Below, one piece after another: positions 424-57,478 of a stretch of DNA of 64,000 nucleotides. Position 1 is the first letter of the stretch; the number at the start of each line of letters is the position of its first letter. A program made the position numbers and the translations under genes. Below the pieces are notes generated by a model that saw nothing but the letters and a program-made list of their open reading frames with translations, searched no databases and was not told where the DNA came from. The stretch spans positions 4,151,631 through 4,215,630 of the forward strand of contig BCIO01000001.1 of assembly GCA_001599975.1 (NCBI GenBank), given 5' to 3'. The DNA comes from Cystobasidiopsis lactophilus. Its lineage: Eukaryota > Basidiomycota > Agaricostilbomycetes > Agaricostilbales > Chionosphaeraceae.

Positions 424-2131
<1,708 letters not shown>

Positions 2132-13669: not shown

Positions 13670-15722
13670 TCATAGATTCACCTGTATGCAAGCGTATGAG
13701 ATTGTGTGTATGCGGGATAAGAGATGAGGGACGGACCGCTTCACTATCGACACCACGTCTTCGTCTTCCAGCACTGTCCGCCGAGTGCATTCAAAAGGGG
13801 GACCCAGTATCGCAATAGAAGAAACTCACCATGGTCCACGCCAACTTTTTGGCCTCTTGCATGCTTCGCCGACCGGCCGTAGCAAATGGCATACTTCATC
13901 TGTTTGGCAATGTCCTTGTGGATGGCGTTGCAAAAGTCTTCGACGGTGCAGCGGGCTCGCTTCAGAACGACGGGAGAGTCGTCTTGTATACTTGTATGAG
14001 TTAGGATCAGAGGCTGGCAGCGCGAGAGAACTGACAGTCTGGCAATTTGCCCCGAGGCTTCGTGTAAACCCGGACAAGGTCAAGCTTCTCCCACATGCCC
14101 TGGTCACCTCGAGTTAAGACTGCGCAAAACGAGAAAGAAACAATGTGACTCACGTCCAAGAGCTCGTCGATGTTGAGCCAGTCGCGGACGCTGATGGGCA
14201 CAGAGTTTGGAATTTTGTAGAGAAGATCTGGGCTTGAAGCATCAGCAACTCTTGGAGGTCCGGAGAACGCAAAAAGAGCTTACCGAGCTCTTCTATGCTG
14301 ATGGCGTCGATCTTGTTCAGCACGTAGAGCGCCGGCATGTAGACCCGGTTGCCTTCGCAGGCGTCGATGAGCTCTTCTACCGTGGCATCGCATCGAAAGG
14401 CCACGTCGCAGTTGGTGAGTCGGTACTCCGAAAGCACGGCCTTGATCTCCTCCGGTTCCAGGTTGTTCAGGGGGACGGTGTTGGTGATGCTGATGCCGCC
14501 TTTTTCCTTCTTTCGAATCACGATGTTCGGCGGCTGCTTGTTCAGCCTGATGCCAAACCCTTCCAACTCGTTCTCGATTACTGCCTTGTCCTTCATCGGC
14601 TTTAGCACGTCCAGGACGATGAAGATGAGGTTGCACGATCGAGCCACCGCGATGACTTGGCGACCGCGACCTTTGCCGTCTTTGGCTCCTTCAATGATCT
14701 GCGAGTGGTGTGAGAGTATGCTCCGGACTGCCTAGAGAAGACTTACACCCGGGAGATCTGGAAGCACAACGTCAGTCACCGCGAGCAGCTTTTGCGGTAG
14801 ACAGACTTGCGCACCTAGGATCTGAACTTTTGCACCATTGACCTGCAGTGTTCCAGGGACGGTTGTGAGAGTCGTGAACTCGTAAGCTGGACTACCTATG
14901 AGCGCGCGTTGGGAGCCTTCAGGAGAGCCTCAACGAACCTGCCACTTCCGAAGCTGTTGTTTGGTGCGATTGAGCAATTATCGACTTGTATAGATGACGG
15001 GCGGCCTACTCGTCCCCGTCAAGCCGCTCATTAGACTTGATTTGCCGACACTGTTCAGTTTTCGGCAATGAGCAAAACCAGGACCCAGTGCAGGCGCGCA
15101 GGCACTCTTCCCACACTCACGATGGAAAACCAATGAAGCCAACGGAAGCAATGCCGGTTCTTGCGACGTCGAAGCCCTGCGTTTGAATGGCACAGTGAGT
15201 CGCATCATCTCAGCATCAGGCCAAAAGCGCGCACAATGCCACCACCGCCTCCTCCTCCAGTTGGCGTCAAGAGCTCTCGTTTTAGCTTGGCAAGTTTTGC
15301 CTTCAATTGACCCAGATGGTAAGATGTTGCTGAGAGGGGAGGCAATGAGCAAAAGTTGTCTCGGTCGCATGCGCAAGGTGATGGAGCCAACCTTTGTTCT
15401 GAATCGCAGCAAAGAGCGTCTCAGTCTCGAAAGCATTGATTGGAACGCTCGAAAAGGTCTCAAAAGTCACCTTCTGCGTCTTGGCCATCTCCCTGCGAGA
15501 ATCATGCATTTTGAACTTTGGCCATGACCTCCATGTCCGAAGGGCACCTACGACTCCTGTTATGTGATGCACAGATCTCAAAAGTCAGCACCAATCGGTT
15601 CAAAGCCGTCACATCGAGCACTTGCAATCTCTGCATGCCAAAATGTTCGCTTTGAGCACCAAACATGTCTTTGGAAACCAGGAAAGCGCCTTGCCCTTTA
15701 TTTTGTCTACCGTTGTCGACAT
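13670..15722 (-). CDS. RBG1: Developmentally regulated GTP-binding protein 1 (Rbg1/DRG1 type)
   Basis: Obg-family translation GTPase that works with a DFRP/Tma46-type partner on polysomes. The start MSTTVDKIK at 15722 and, after unresolved splicing, [20 protein letters not shown] match the conserved DRG N-terminus. Then come G1 ([19 protein letters not shown]), [14 protein letters not shown] (G2), DLPG (G3, followed by [14 protein letters not shown]), NKID (G4) and the TGS region ([50 protein letters not shown]). [16 protein letters not shown] with [11 protein letters not shown] places it in the DRG1/Rbg1 rather than DRG2 branch. Two exons are tiny: 15392-15398 (7 nt) and 14747-14757 (11 nt). 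The protein runs about 22 residues beyond the usual ...VKR/KK end to a TGA at 13670-13672. The junction between MSTTVDKIK and EMAKTQ is not settled. Confidence 0.93.
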
Positions 15723-51217: not shown

Positions 51218-52530
51218 TCAATGAAGCGTAGGATAGCGGTGGCCAGACCGCTTCCTCCTGATCTTGTAGTCAGGTCCCTCCTCGGGAGGAGCGTCTTGGC
51301 CTGCAGGTCCGGCAGGAGGATTGCTGTCAGTCGTGCAGGCAATCAGTCTTGACTGTGAGCTACAAGACGAGTCAATACTAACGGTTGGGGCTTGAGCGCG
51401 TTTCCAGGAGGAGGAGGCTTCTTGCCCTTTGGTGGTGGCCTTGGTCGATGCGAGTCAGCCTCGACTTTGGTCCCCATGATCGGGACACTCACGGAGGAGA
51501 CAGCATATCAGAAGCGATGGACATCATCTTGGCCATGGCGCCGCCCATATTCATGCCTTTGCCCTTGCCCATGTCTTTGCCCATTGGTGGCGGAGGTGGA
51601 GGCGGAGGCCTGGCGATGCGTCAGCGCTAGTGTCTCACGTCTGGCGCTACACAAAGCTTACATGGAGTAAGCCGAAGCAGAGGAGGACTGGTCTGAGCTT
51701 GAGCTGGTCGAGGTCTCGTAGGCTCCGAGGGAGGAGCCAGACAGCGTAGATAGGTACTCGGTGCTGGTGGTCGTATCTCCGCTACTGGTCGAAAGGCCAG
51801 AGTAGATTGAGTTATCGGAGTTGTAGACGCTGCCATACGAGCCTGCCGTGCTCGTGCTTTAGCGTGATGCGCAACAAGGCGAGGCTGGTATGCGCTCACC
51901 CTCGGTGACGGTCCTGAGACAGTTCTATGAGGAATAAAACGAGCTTCGGGTAAAGTTCCAAGCACTTACTCAGTCTTTGTTCTGCTCGGCCCAGTGCATC
52001 AGAGAGTGGGAGCGAGATCATCAATCGAACCGCTCACTCAGTCAACGTCTTGGTCCTTCAGCCCAAAGCTTTCAGGTCCCGACCAAATGTGTCTAGAAGC
52101 GGAAGGCTCACTTGTGCTTTGTGACGGTGACAGTCTCCGTCACGGTATTCTGTCCGTATTGATTGTTGCCTGGTGGCGGTGGTGACATACTCATCATGGG
52201 AGGAGGAGGAGCAGAAGCGCCGGACTCCAAGCTCATTGGTGGTGGCGGAGGAGGGGGAGGAGCGTTGGAACCAAGGCTCATGGGAGGTGGTGGCGGGGGA
52301 GGTAGCCCGGAAGCGGCAGACATGGGAGGAGGAGGATTGGCCCCCTTAGGTGGCTGCGGCGGAGGAGGAGCACCCGAAGGAGCTGCTCCAGGCTGCATGG
52401 CAACAGCGGGAGGCGCCGCCATGCCAGCCATGCCGTTGCTTTGGTCGGAGAAGATGCCGAGGTCGCCAATGGGTGAAGCGGCAGCCACCAAGGCTAAGCC
52501 GGAGAATAGGATGGCCTTGGAGAAGAACAT
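51218..52530 (-). CDS. Secreted Pro/Ser-rich protein with micro-exons (paralogue of the gene at 53404)
   Basis: ATG 52528-52530 starts a signal peptide (MFFSKAILFSGLALVAAAS). Exon 1 continues into long Pro runs (GAPPPPQPPKGANPPPP and similar) and ends NQYGQNTVTETVTVTKHK. A chain of tiny exons follows with consistent phases: K|TKTLTE, then an 11-nt exon giving TKTE, then TVTEG. Next is a Ser/Thr-rich exon (YGSVYNSDNSIYSGLSTSSG) and more Pro/Gly-rich exons ([40 protein letters not shown]). The end is DYKIRRKRSGHRYPTLH and TGA at 51218-51220. RKR before the last nine residues is a good Kex2-type site. The TVTETVT...KTKTLTE part and the upstream DNA match the 53404-56512 gene. A structural wall or secreted peptide precursor role is inference. 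Confidence 0.7.
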
Positions 52531-53403
52531 CTTTGGCGTTGTTGATAAGGAAGGGAGAGGAGACAGTCCAGCTGGTCTCAAAACGATGGGCTAATGTGCG
52601 GCCAGAGCACCGAGAAAGGCCAAAGAAGCTCCTGAGCTTGCTATTGGGCGGATGCAATCACACAGTGACGCTAGTGAAGAGTGAAGAGGTGGTGTTTGTA
52701 GAGAGGAAAGAGAGAGACCAGGGCGGAGCGTCGCAGCGGCCCTTTTGCCTCGCAACGAATGAAATCACTTGGCGCCTTTGGATCGACACAGATGCAACAA
52801 TCCCTCCGAACCTTGTCCCGTGGATGTGCACCGCAGTGGGTCGATGATAGGGTTATGCCGCGCGAGTACCCTCGCTTCAAGTTCGCAGGGGTAGCATCTG
52901 GCCATGCCTTGTGGCCACCTAGAATGACGCACCACCTTCATTCACCGGTCCAAGAAGGTCTCATCAAGCAAGAAGGTGACATTGAAAGCAGACAACCAGG
53001 AAACAAGGCCGAACTACCCATTCCGGCAGATGAGGTCGAAGGCACAGCGAGGAAGTGGTGAATTTGCACGATGAGTCGTTGTCGTGGGCTCGGAACAGTA
53101 TGCGCTCGTAGGAAGTAATAGTGCGCATCCCTGCAGATGACTTGGAAGGAGAGGTCGTAATGAACGTGAAAATCGATCAAAATTCGCGAGGCGAAAGTGG
53201 CTGCAGCAAAGGGGAAAGGAGAGCCGCAAAAGCAGCCGTCCTGAATTCAAGCGAATGGATCTATGGGAGAGTGCCAACGAAAGTGGGAAAGGATTTTAAA
53301 GTAAGGAAGCCTTGGGGCGAGAAAGGAGAGAGAGATTGTCCATCTCGACGTGAGTCGATGAAGTTGTGATTGTCCGATTATCCTTGAGCCTTGCGAATGA
53401 TGA
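52531..53403. other. Promoter region of the 51.2-52.5 kb gene
   Basis: The first about 200 bases (52531-52740) are clearly similar to those upstream of the paralogue at 56512 (see the regulatory entries). The remainder holds no convincing ORF. Confidence 0.5.
52590..52705 (-). promoter_or_regulatory. Conserved promoter block shared with the paralogue
   Basis: On the + strand this block reads ...GCCAGAGCA...AAGAAGCTCCTGAGCTTGC...GGCGGATGC(A)ATCA...GAAGAGGTGGTG. The same phrases in the same order occur at 56578-56680 upstream of the related gene, at similar distances from each ATG. The conservation covers non-coding DNA, so it probably marks shared promoter elements or a recent duplication. 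Confidence 0.65.
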
Positions 53404-56400
53404 TTAGTGCTGCCCGAGGTAGCGGTCTGACCGCTTCTTGTGCTTGTAGCCACCGTATCCGCCATACCCGCCGCTAGACCCCGTCGAGCCAGAAGACCCG
53501 GTTGCGGTGGTGGCGGCGGCTGCTTCTGTGGAGATGGTCGAGGCTTGAGTCGTGCCGGATGTGACCTCGAACATGCCAATGCCCTTAGGGTGCGGGATCG
53601 CAGGGCCAACTCTGCACACCGGCTTAAGTCCCGAGCGCTTGATCGGAAATGTATAGAGAGAGCACGCACGCCTTGGGCTTGGAGGTCTTTTTCGCTGCCT
53701 TGCTGGTTGACGCCGACGATGACTTCTCAGCTCGCTTCTTGTACCCGTAGCCTCCGGCGCCATATCCACCAGCAGCAGCGCCGCCTGAACTCGAAGTGGC
53801 GGCAACCGCGGGTGCTGTCGATGAGGGAGTGACGGCCTGCGTGGTGCCAGTCGAGACCAAAAACATGCCGATGCCCTTTGTCTCGCGGATGCCAGGTCCA
53901 ACGCTGTGCTCGACATGATGAGCGCTAAGTCATGCATCGAGGCCACATAGAGCTCACGCTTTAGGCTTGGGCGTCTTGCGTGCTTTCTTGCTGGTGGCAG
54001 ACGACGACGACTCGGCGCGCTTGTACTTGTACGCACCCCCAGAGCCAACGGTGGGTGCAGGCTGGGACGAGGCTTCTGTCTTGCCTGACGAGACGATCTG
54101 GCATCCGACACCTTCGGTCTGCCTCTTGCCGATGCTACTCCAACCATCAGGTACATGGAGATGTTGACACGAGGCAAGAGATGCTCACTCTGCCTTGAGG
54201 CCACTTGATTGCCTGAATGCAGAATTGAGTCAAACACTGGAAGGAAAAGGCAGGTAGACGATGAGCTGCTCACTTCTCGCTACTGTCGCTGGCAGTCGTC
54301 GTGCTAGCTTCGGTGGAAGATGAAGTCGAAGTTGAAGCTTTCATAGGCTTGACCTCTTTGCTGCTGGTCGCGGTGTATTTCGAATCATCGCTGTAGGCGT
54401 AGGTGTTCCCGTCCGACGACGTGTAGTAAAGCGAAGTGTCGTAGCCGCCGGAGCCGTACTGGCCCATCTTGTGCGAGCCGCTGCCCTTGCCGTGGCTCAT
54501 CTTGCCATGCCCAGAGCCGTGACCTTGATAGCCGCTGCCTTGGTAGTCGCCACCTTGCTGGTAGCCTTGGTAGTAGCCGCCCTGGTAGTTGCCTTGGTAC
54601 TGCGAGTCGTCCGAGGTGTAGGCTTGCCATTCGTAAGAAGTCCCGCCTTCATGATCGCTAACGGTCTGCAGATTGGTTACATCAAACGGATGCTTGCACC
54701 TCTTGTGCATGAATGCGTACCTTGGTGGCGAATTTGGTCTTGTGGTAAATGACCCTGCACAAGCCCTGGGATGAGCGCAGGTGGCACCTTTGGGCGAGGC
54801 GCGGCTCACGTGGTAGGCTCCATCTTAGTCGACGTTTTGGTGATGGTGTGATAGATGTTCTTCGTCTTGTCGATCTGGACGAGCAACCAGGGCTGAGGGG
54901 CACTTCGAGCTCGCGGGCAGGACATCAACTTACGGTCTCCGTGCTGACGGTCTCGTAAGTGACCTGTAGACCGGTCAGCTTGAGTCGGAAGTGCAAAGGC
55001 TAGACGAACGGTAGTAGGCTCCAGGCGCGTGGAGGTGACAGTATCCGTTTGGCTGCAGGGGATGAGCTGGGAAGACTAAACGTGGAAGCCAAGAGAGTAG
55101 CTCACAACTTGGTCTTGAAGTCCGCTGCAGCACCAATGTGAGCTAAGACCATCACAGGTTCTGGAATAGATGGGCGCACTCTCTGTGTCGGTCCTACAAC
55201 TGGCTATCAGCTCTGTCGACCGGCGCAAGTTCAACGGCTCACTCGAATTTCGTCTGCGTTTCGTGAACCGTCATTGTGCTGCCACAAGGCGTTCAGCGAG
55301 CAACGCAGACCCATTAAAGGGACGCCCTACTCGTGTTCCGTAACGCGCTCTGTGACTGGCTTCTCGATCGCTGCAACGCTAAGTGAGCCAGAAACACACC
55401 GTAGGTCAGAGAGACCATTGCGCGCACTCATCGTCTCGGTCCTGCCATGCTATTTAGCTCTATTGGGAGGCAGACGTATTCGAGGGCTCACTCGAATTTG
55501 GTCTTCGTTTCGTGGACCGTCATTGTGCTGCAAAAAACAGTTGAGCATAAGCTGCAGGTCCATCAAAGGGATGCCCTACTCATGCTCCGTCCGGGTAACA
55601 TGCTCTGTGACTGGCTTCTCAACCGCTGCAGGATCGAAGTGAGCCAAAGAGCGCTTGAGAGGAATCGTGGTGCTCACTCTTCGTTTCGTGGACCGTCATT
55701 GTGCTGCCACAGGGAGTTGAGCAAGTGATGTAGCCCTACTGAAGGGATGGCTTACTCATGTTCGGTCTGAGTGACGTGCTCTGTGACTGGCTTCTCGACC
55801 GCTGCCAAATCCAAGTGAGTCTAAACAGCGCTTGGTCAGAGGAATCGTGGCGCGCACTCTGTGTCTCGAACATGGTCTTCGTCCTTCGCCCAAGGCTCAA
55901 AACCAATATAATCAGGCAATCGAAAGGGGCTCACTCGGTCATTGTGCTGCAAAAAGGACTGAGCAGAAGTTGCAGCCTCAATGAAGGGACGCCCTACTCG
56001 TGTTCCACGCGCGTCTCGTGCTCCGTCAGCGTCTTCGTCTTGTGCTCGACTTCGGTGACTGTTTCCGTGAGGGTGTCTTGGCCGTACTGGTTGTAAGAGC
56101 CACCCATGTCGTACGAGGACGTGGAGCCTTGGTGGTACTGGCCGGATTGATCGTAGTAGCCTCCGCTGGAATCATAGGACGTCGTCGAACTGGACTGGTA
56201 GTAGCTGTCATCGCTGGAGGTGCTGTCGTACTTGCTGCCCTTTCCGCCTTTTGGTGGTGAAGCTTTGCCCATGCCCTTGCCCGCGTCTTTTGATCCCGAA
56301 GGCTCGCTGTTGTACTTTGGAGCAGGAGGCGAAGGTGGAGAATGGTCTGACGGGGACTTGGAAGGAGGGTATTTGGGCTCGCTAGACGGTTTGGGAGCAG

Positions 56401-56512
56401 CGTGCGCTTCCAGAGGGGCCGGGGTGGAGCCGGCGGCGAAGAAGCCGGCGGGCGATTGTGCGGCGGCCGCAAGGGCCAAGCTGGTGAGGAGAAGGGCCTT
56501 GTAGATGGGCAT
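53404..56512 (-). CDS. Secreted repeat protein encoded by a chain of micro-exons, with Lys-Arg processing sites
   Basis: ATG 56510-56512 starts a signal peptide (MPIYKALLLTSLALAAAAQS). Exon 1 holds a Pro/Ser/Tyr-rich region (SPSDHSPPSPPAPKYNSEPS; GSYNQYGQDTLTETVTEVEH) ending TKTLTEHETRVEHE. From about 55990 to 54730 roughly 15 short exons (12-60 nt) follow, most joined within GA|C or GA|G codons. They encode Thr/Glu/His-rich repeats such as TMTVHETKTKFE and VEKPVTEHVTRTEHE. A Tyr/Gly/Gln-rich exon (YQGNYQGGYYQGYQQGGDYQ) leads to three C-terminal modules: GKRQTEGVGCQIVSSGKTEA..., VGPGIRETKGIGMFLVSTGT... and VGPAIPHPKGIGMFEVTSGT.... The first two end RAESSSSATSKKARKTPKPK and RAEKSSSASTSKAAKKTSKP; the third ends KHKKRSDRYLGQH with TAA 53404-53406. 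Phases agree through the C-terminal exons, so it reads as one gene. The family is unknown to me. Confidence 0.72.
55250..55990 (-). repeat. Tandem array of exon/intron repeat units (about 176-255 bp each)
   Basis: Recurring phrases on the + strand show the array: TCATTGTGCTGC at 55271, 55520, 55696 and 55939 (spacing 249, 176, 243), and CTCTGTGACTGG at 55348, 55603 and 55779. Each unit holds an exon coding about TMTVHETK(TKFE), an optional small one (TETM or TKTMFETQ), and one of up to 46 nt coding about VEKPVTEHVT-TEHE, together with their introns. The roughly 70-bp shorter unit lacks the optional exon. Introns are repeated along with exons, so the duplication took place at DNA level. Confidence 0.85.
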
Positions 56513-57478
56513 TTTGAGGTGCGTTGACAAGGGGAAATGAAAGACAGGCCAGCTGTATGAGACGCGAATCGATGTGCTGCCAGAGCAATGAAAAACCGAA
56601 GCAGCTCCTGAGCTTGCGGTCGGCGGATGCGATCAACGCAAAATGAAAGGGAGAGAGAAAGGGAAGAGGTGGTGGGTGCAGAGCAAAAAGGACTGAGCGA
56701 AGGCTGAGCGGCCTCCAATGTTTCAGGTCCTTGCTTGCTTCACGACGAATTTTCTAGGTGTCTGCGCCCCCTTTTTAAGCCTTCAGTCGTGCTGTGAGCT
56801 TACGCGTGGCGTAATCAACGCAATCATGCAATCGCAATGGTTGCAGAATTGGCGGAAGACCCAACATCCTGCAATGCGCGCACACGGCAGGCAGAAGCAC
56901 TCGATGCAGTCTCTCGTCGCGCATTTCGAGCCTCAAAAAGCGCACCCAATGCAAAGGGAGTTCACGCCCCCGAGCAGGATGAGCGAATGATAAGCGGTCA
57001 TCTGGCGGGCGATCTGGTTGCAAAGTTCGAAGAGTCGGCGGAAGGGGCAGCGCACCGTCATCTGGCCGGCATTCTGGCGCTCGGACAACTTTGCTGAAGA
57101 CGTACAATCACGGAAAGGCACAGAAAACAAAAGGGAGTCGACCTCTGTTGGCCACCGACGACCAACTTCATTCGAAATCTGGTGGCAAAAAATTAAGACT
57201 CGCTCTTGACTGTGGATTTGCGCGTTTTTTGCTGCTTTGGAGTGCTTCAATGACTTCTCTTGCCTTCTCAAATGGTTTCCGCGGTCGAACGACGCGCTTT
57301 CCAGGCGCGAACGTGAACTTTAGCGCGTCACCGTTGAAGACCGTGAAATCGCTTTTCTTGCTGGAGCCGTTATACCTTGACCACTTGGAGCGCTCTGACT
57401 CTTGCTCCTGCTCATCCACTTCCGGACACTTCGAAAGCCCTTCCAAAGCTCGAACTTTGCCTGTCTTTGATATCAAGC
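56513..57478. other. Promoter region of the micro-exon gene (divergent from the small gene at 57479)
   Basis: The proximal 200 bases match the promoter of the paralogue at 52530. A TTAAAAAG element on the minus strand (about 56771-56778) could be a TATA-like box. ORFs at 57091-57645 (+) and 57168-57677 (-) overlap a better-supported spliced gene and are not called. Confidence 0.45.
56575..56685 (-). promoter_or_regulatory. Conserved promoter block shared with the 51.2-52.5 kb paralogue
   Basis: Counterpart of 52590-52705: GCAGCTCCTGAGCTTGC, GGCGGATGCGATCA and GAAGAGGTGGTG appear in the same order. The spaced islands of identity in otherwise diverged DNA suggest selection on promoter sites. 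Confidence 0.65.

Follow-up and report, generated by a model that had tools for sequence, protein, structure and literature searches.

A tandemly duplicated chain of micro-exons in a predicted secreted-protein gene of the basidiomycete Cystobasidiopsis lactophilus

Introduction

Can a long chain of very short exons form a single protein-coding gene, and if so how did the chain grow and what might its product do? The question is raised by a locus of Cystobasidiopsis lactophilus that lies in C1:4151631-4215630 (contig BCIO01000001.1), a stretch of 64,000 nucleotides referred to below as the window, whose coordinates are used throughout; the genome comprises 22.1 Mb in 8 contigs (56.5% GC). A first-pass annotation had described the locus as one secreted-type protein built as a chain of micro-exons, and the 21-exon model reported here, with its signal-peptide-like start, bears this out. 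The best explanation, which we hold to be probable, is that the locus encodes a secreted protein with a structural or surface role, whose threonine array has grown by tandem duplication of exon-plus-intron units that are joined constitutively. The structure of the gene is well supported by the sequence; its function and any splice variation we infer. New here are a parity rule for threonines, a tandem paralog with three micro-exons, and a C-terminus of one repeat per exon with KR sites.

Results

A single gene of 21 exons

The model drawn by hand is a single gene of 21 exons on the minus strand, running from an ATG at 56512 to a TAA that ends at 53404: the interval first proposed, 53404-56512, was exact. 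In the adopted model, which takes the gene finder's acceptor for exon 19 (3 nt later than the hand-drawn one), 2,037 nt of coding sequence specify 678 aa, with the joined frame open and the phases consistent. Introns measure 46-61 nt. Fifteen internal exons in a row (exons 2-16) are 12-65 nt each, in agreement with the approximately 15 very short exons said to follow a signal-peptide-type exon. Most introns carry, by eye, a CTNA motif close to the acceptor. The parts of the gene, with short exons designated A, B and C by their place in the duplicated units described below, are as follows.

55998-56512, minus strand: exon 1, 515 nt; signal-peptide-like N-terminus MPIYKALLLTSLALAAAAQS (by inspection and hydropathy), a Pro/Gly/Tyr/Gln-rich part, and the start of the threonine array DTLTETVTEVEHKTKTLTEHETRVEH
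55947-55997, minus strand: intron 1, donor GTAGGG; retention would give E-stop at once
55704-55946, minus strand: unit 1, 243 bp; exons 2 (55935-55946, 12 nt), 3 (55858-55883, 26 nt) and 4 (55756-55801, 46 nt) with introns
Intron 4, minus strand: also precedes an A exon; donor GTAAGC
55528-55703, minus strand: unit 2, 176 bp; exons 5 (55678-55703, 26 nt) and 6 (55580-55625, 46 nt); A/B intron gone, phase kept
55279-55527, minus strand: unit 3, 249 bp; exons 7 (55492-55527, 36 nt), 8 (55428-55441, 14 nt) and 9 (55331-55370, 40 nt)
55528-55579 and 55279-55330, minus strand: introns 6 and 9, donor GTAGGG as in intron 1
55053-55278, minus strand: unit 4, 226 bp, the most diverged; exons 10 (55243-55278, 36 nt), 11 (55180-55193, 14 nt) and 12 (55106-55124, 19 nt)
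54721-55052, minus strand: exons 13 (55010-55052), 14 (54934-54963), 15 (54810-54874) and 16 (54721-54754)
54274-54665, minus strand: exon 17, 392 nt; Gly/Tyr/Gln/His-rich, then Ser/Thr-rich
54189-54212, minus strand: exon 18, 24 nt
53404-54134, minus strand: exons 19 (53958-54134), 20 (53670-53903) and 21 (53404-53611); each with one repeat; three KR sites of the four, and also the KR in the start of exon 19; last fragment SDRYLGQH

Splice junctions have a recurrent form: GA precedes and C or G follows the splice point in 11 of the first 12 introns and in 12 of all 20. The earlier statement that splicing falls inside GAC or GAG codons holds for somewhat over half of those first introns, a GAN codon being split after GA in 7/12 (8/20 overall); in four cases the divided codon is ACG, cut after its first base. 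Phase-2 introns number 13/20 compared to 146/463 in the background, a count in which the tandem copies are not independent.

A semi-Markov gene finder was trained on 20 segments of 10 kb from the same genome plus the window minus 52.9-57 kb (approximately 260 kb). The training set held 102 genes and 506 introns (median 58 nt); it included the neighboring paralog and excluded the gene itself. With lowered donor and acceptor floors the finder returned one gene, 20 of its 21 exons identical to those drawn by hand and exon 19 starting 3 nt later. This gene scored 206.6; in the comparison with resampled controls the real sequence scored 208.3, with 15 internal exons of at most 66 nt in a row. When the micro-exon zone was resampled 100 times under an order-1 Markov model and searched with the same floors, the best score was 89.8 and the longest run of short exons was 3. 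A chance open frame is ruled out by these controls.

The locus might instead hold two adjacent genes: the first would end with TEHE-stop in an unspliced intron 6 and the second would start further downstream. The first gene-finder run, with a donor floor of 1 bit, split the locus in this manner, the downstream half sharing 11 of the 21 hand-drawn exons. That run, however, excluded donors scoring 1 bit or less, whereas the lowered floors – used for the controls as well – yield one gene of 21 exons. The downstream model, moreover, has its start at 55418, a position that falls within intron 8 of the full model, and has no signal peptide by eye. We consider a pair of genes very improbable.

Short exons are ordinary in this genome

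In the background the longest run of internal exons of 66 nt or less is 4 (102 genes; 101 genes with lowered floors), a sample of approximately 1% of the genome in which some genes are clipped by the ends of the 10-kb segments. Single short exons are another matter. Predicted internal exons of 15 nt or less number 29 of 430, and two conserved housekeeping genes contain such exons, with support from homology:

424-2131, minus strand: pyruvate dehydrogenase (PDH) E1 beta, with an exon of 10 nt
13678-15488, minus strand: Rbg1-type GTPase, with exons of 15 and 11 nt

At these exons both joined proteins align to solved relatives free of gaps. Tiny exons are thus ordinary in this fungus and the outlier is the long tandem chain; micro-exons alone are ruled out as what sets the gene apart. 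In another stretch, two adjoining genes for similar membrane-type proteins (L024:2086-4083 and L024:1-1392, both minus strand) have several predicted exons of 2-21 nt, some of which may be prediction errors. The window also encodes calcineurin B, the closest solved structure being 6tz8 from Cryptococcus neoformans, which fits a basidiomycete.

The threonines of the 131-residue array share one register

From the tail of exon 1 through exon 12 – 131 residues crossing 11 splice junctions – every threonine (41/41) stands on the same parity. This was not equaled in 20,000 random threonine placements, although random placement ignores inheritance by duplication. When the array is extended through exon 16 (191 residues, approximately 146-336 of the protein), 58 of 61 threonines remain on one parity. 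Pairs of threonines peak at lags of 6, 12, 18 and 24 (39, 38, 35 and 38 pairs), compared to 28-31 at other even lags and approximately 17-19 expected. The array of the paralog gives 12/12. The register also serves to check the splice model, because any junction misplaced by an odd count of codons would disrupt it. As read from the sequence, it is partly inherited through duplication, yet it outlasts the differing insertions and deletions of units 1-3.

Exon groups had also been described as symmetric in phase, such that skipping would keep the frame. All eleven symmetric omissions that we tried leave the frame intact, and nine preserve the threonine register as well; three single asymmetric omissions all lose the frame. 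Symmetric exons, pairs and units within units 1-3 change the protein by even numbers of residues, and the two exceptions involve the last exons of unit 4. Exon 3 could also use an acceptor 12 nt further upstream, with both frame and register kept. These even steps suggest a further idea, to which we assign a rather low likelihood: the micro-exons of units 1-3 may serve as a ruler that sets the length of a rod bearing a single threonine face, duplication or splicing altering this length while the face stays unbroken. The gene would then encode a fungal surface rod adjustable by splicing or copy number, possibly surface-active or ice-binding-like. Insect antifreeze proteins carry TxT faces.

The array consists of tandem exon-plus-intron units

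Two recurrent markers, counted four and three times in the first-pass annotation, had been taken as signs that whole exon-plus-intron units were duplicated. The first, TCATTGTGCTGC, has 4 copies in the gene (8 genome-wide) and corresponds to the acceptor and start of every A exon; the second, CTCTGTGACTGG, has 3 copies, inside C exons. A exons are spaced by 249, 176 and 243 bp and C exons by 255 and 176 bp, and the four units (243, 176, 249 and 226 bp) can be aligned as copies over their introns as well as their exons: duplication of whole units is upheld. Both borders of a unit are in phase 2, so that the gain or loss of an entire unit would leave the frame intact. Coding lengths differ among units 1-3 by 24, 12, 24 and 6 nt, and unit 2 has lost one intron with phase maintained. 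Exons 13-16 are perhaps an older, diverged duplication (TRLEPTT-VTYET / TKMEPTT-VIYHK, seen by eye).

Over the six pairs of units, exon columns are identical in 280/348 cases (0.805) and intron columns in 437/760 (0.575), with 6 mixed columns excluded. This stricter comparison replaced an alignment with loose gap costs, which did not discriminate: unrelated introns also averaged 0.76. Mean divergence between copies is thus approximately 20% for exon columns and 42% for intron columns, which argues, for the one genome compared, against recent homogenization or current instability; a currently unstable array was rejected as a candidate on these grounds. Pooled over six copy pairs, which are not independent, there are 14 synonymous changes over 42.0 sites and 9 nonsynonymous changes over 153.0 sites.

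These figures bear on whether the array is decaying or non-coding – duplicated DNA whose segments are for the most part not exonic. Such an array would accommodate the weak donors of three introns and the one copy pair (C6-C9) that lacks clear constraint. It does not fit with exons conserved above introns, length differences that keep the frame, a per-site excess of synonymous over nonsynonymous change, total splice scores that are background-like in most introns, or a threonine register unbroken over 11 junctions, and we regard it as extremely improbable.

Splice signals and the possibility of variants

The total splice-signal score is similar to background in most introns of the gene. The donor GTAGGG is found in three of the four introns that precede A exons compared to 1 of 528 predicted background introns, a rarity that is partly built in, since donors of the GTAGGG type fell below the floor applied in training the donor model. 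Retention of any of these three introns would read E-stop. On retention, 12 of 20 introns give a stop within two codons (80/463 in the background). Among the predicted background introns, many donors have C at position 4 (GTGCGT 78, GTTCGT 33, GTGCGC 30 of 528).

The array could be a ladder tuned by splicing. The weak GTAGGG donors, which overlap in-frame TAG codons, stand at the borders of units, and retention or skipping would produce shorter secreted proteins devoid of the C-terminal repeats, or arrays of varied length. The donor and stop counts given above speak for such a ladder, as does the outcome of symmetric omission (11/11 in frame, 9/11 in register). However, introns 1, 6 and 9 are copies of one ancestor and count once, the training floor inflates the contrast with background, phase-2 introns that start GTGA, GTAA or GTAG usually give an immediate stop, and two of the eleven omissions break the register. 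Published observations fall on both sides: exon skipping is reported among isoforms of Cryptococcus neoformans and micro-exons of Phanerochaete P450 genes have been proposed to promote alternative splicing (PMC1184071), yet intron retention in Cryptococcus commonly leads to a stop or frameshift (PMC3990503 for both Cryptococcus statements). On balance we think such tuning unlikely.

The preferred reading, of units joined constitutively, rests on intron length. For introns this short intron definition is expected, and hence mostly constitutive joining; at 46-61 nt it would be the introns that are recognized, and the tiny exons would not have to be.

The C-terminal repeats and possible KEX2 processing

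The N-terminus looks like a signal peptide and no strongly hydrophobic segment follows it; the 678-aa protein has one cysteine and no N-glycosylation sequon. Toward the C-terminus, exons 20 and 21 share a repeat (AVGPxI..KGIGMF..GTTQA..GGY..KKR), of which exon 19 holds a weaker version. Alignment scores exceed the maxima of 300 shuffles for exons 19/20 (126 vs. 54) and 20/21 (147 vs. 67) and fall below the maximum for 19/21 (31 vs. 44.5). KR occurs at residues 476, 511, 588 and 669: cleavage would release fragments of 35, 77, 81 and 8 aa, five in all if the N-terminal one is counted. KEX2-processed repeat proteins (KEPs) have been delimited as proteins that KR/RR cutting divides into at least four fragments, as it would here, and in which at least three fragments fit one repeat pattern, the C-terminal fragment excluded (PMC6339444). 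Judged by the exon-repeat shuffles rather than the published pipeline, the repeat pattern is present in part, and the C-terminus as predicted comes close to that of a KEP.

The function of the gene could then lie in released C-terminal peptides, the array being a mere spacer. In favor of such a precursor are the four KR sites with their predicted fragments, and the paralog, which likewise ends with KR and a tail of 9 aa (SGHRYPTLH) that resembles SDRYLGQH by eye. The predicted fragments are, however, long and unequal compared to the alpha-pheromone peptides (9-24 aa; PMC6339444), and the paralog retains a threonine array and has no repeat series. A peptide precursor is possible, in our estimation, though on the unlikely side. 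As an observation in its own right, the two tails (SDRYLGQH in 53404-53611 and SGHRYPTLH in 51218-51323, both minus strand) have S, RY and a final H in common, and each may perhaps be a released peptide.

A neighboring paralog

Downstream of the gene lies a shorter relative, and the upstream blocks of the two are also alike:

51218-52530, minus strand: tandem paralog, 8 exons, 307 aa (gene-finder model; gene in the training set); signal-peptide-like start; NQYGQNTVTETVTVTKHKTKTLTETKTETVTE, whose micro-exons measure 18, 12 and 14 nt; C-terminus RRKRSGHRYPTLH
56523-56710, minus strand: upstream block of the 21-exon gene, resembling the paralog's upstream block at 52541-52730

The paralog is predicted to follow the same plan in short form, with three micro-exons. 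Its upstream block shows 75% identity over 112 bp of query (E 7.6e-10; score 84 compared to at most 28 in 200 single-base shuffles). BLASTP of gene against paralog gave E 4e-14, obtained without low-complexity or composition correction and to be weighed together with the motif and promoter matches. Genome probes with the threonine motif, the C-terminus and the upstream DNA matched only the gene and the paralog; searching exon by exon has limited sensitivity – two other genome searches did not list the paralog – and further members could be missed.

A protein database search gave no match for the 679-aa hand-drawn model among the best 7,995 candidates scored, or for the joined C-terminal exons among 6,004. 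These negatives say little, since a control, the Pfam-recognized TBC-domain protein of the window, was also without a match among 7,997 candidates. One scan each of viral contigs and prokaryote genomes, both non-fungal collections, found no relative of the C-terminal repeat.

Discussion

Comparison with known systems

The analogy with schistosome micro-exon genes (MEGs) that was first drawn does not hold by definition. In schistosome MEGs approximately 80% of the coding region consists of short symmetric exons of 6-36 bp (PMC5825161); here exons of 36 nt or less, 11 in number, account for 271/2,037 nt (13%), and only 5 of the 11 are multiples of 3, the rest being symmetric as groups. Under a looser range of 3-81 bp (PMC10526429) the share is 511/2,037 nt. 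MEG products are furthermore secreted or membrane-anchored, with protein variants arising by alternative splicing. The two share a signal-peptide-like exon 1, a series of very short exons, symmetric groups and presumably a secreted-type product (PMC5825161, PMC4015677, PMC10526429), and differ in their introns: 46-61 nt here, up to 5 kbp there. Tandemly repeated schistosome exons with 81-base repeats (Davis et al. 1988, from its title) also carry a repeat in tandem exons, whereas each fungal repeat is divided among two or three micro-exons. Aphid bicycle genes resemble the gene in their many micro-exons, excess of phase 2 and secreted-type proteins, but nearly all of their internal exons are of this phase (PMC9168663), compared to 13/20 introns here.

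Among fungi, KEX2-processed repeat proteins and Ustilago Rep1 (PMC6339444, PMC7329392, PMC9769878) likewise have a signal-peptide-like start and internal repeats split by KR. The present gene differs in having only 3 repeats, 59-78 aa per exon, behind a large threonine array, and the portions available of those papers do not mention micro-exons. The P450 genes of Phanerochaete, also a basidiomycete, have exons for 2-10 aa and small introns, but tandem exon-plus-intron units are not described in the available part of that source (PMC1184071). A functional micro-exon is known in Trichoderma (PMC11121469). A literature search, with most subscription papers outside its reach, found no fungal gene of this build.

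How the gene may have grown and what it may do

We propose that the threonine array grew by tandem duplication of units beginning and ending in phase 2, giving a predicted protein segment with threonine at every second residue and an additional period of six. Intron definition would splice the chain constitutively into one mRNA. The array may then form an extended beta-type rod, possibly O-mannosylated, with one threonine face and one charged face, while KEX2-type cleavage at the four KR sites would release C-terminal repeat fragments, and the product, like Ustilago Rep1, would act on the cell surface or beyond it.

Several points weigh against a single, constitutively joined gene for a secreted surface protein. 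Introns 1, 6 and 9 have weak GTAGGG donors, intron 16 has no good branch site, the hand-drawn acceptor of intron 18 is also weak, and a 1-bit donor floor makes the gene finder split the locus in two. Unit 4 departs from the pattern: its last exon falls short of that of unit 3 by 21 nt, which makes an odd number of residues (7), and omission of exons 11 and 12 (11 residues) or of the whole unit (23 residues) throws 17 threonines out of register. Taken alone the C6-C9 pair shows little constraint (2 synonymous changes over 8.0 sites, 4 nonsynonymous over 28.0). The signal peptide is assigned from inspection and hydropathy, a Pfam search gave no family for the protein, and a PDB search gave no match for the array.

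Implications

Ordinary splice-site floors can make gene finders split genes of this kind, which is a warning for annotation. If our reading is true, C. lactophilus has a fungal repeat protein made from micro-exons copied in tandem, in a lineage other than the schistosomes and aphids in which micro-exon genes are best known, and its exon structure is tied to a strict rule of the protein, threonine at every second residue. It would offer an example of how secreted repeat proteins can grow, with no break of frame, in an intron-rich fungus.

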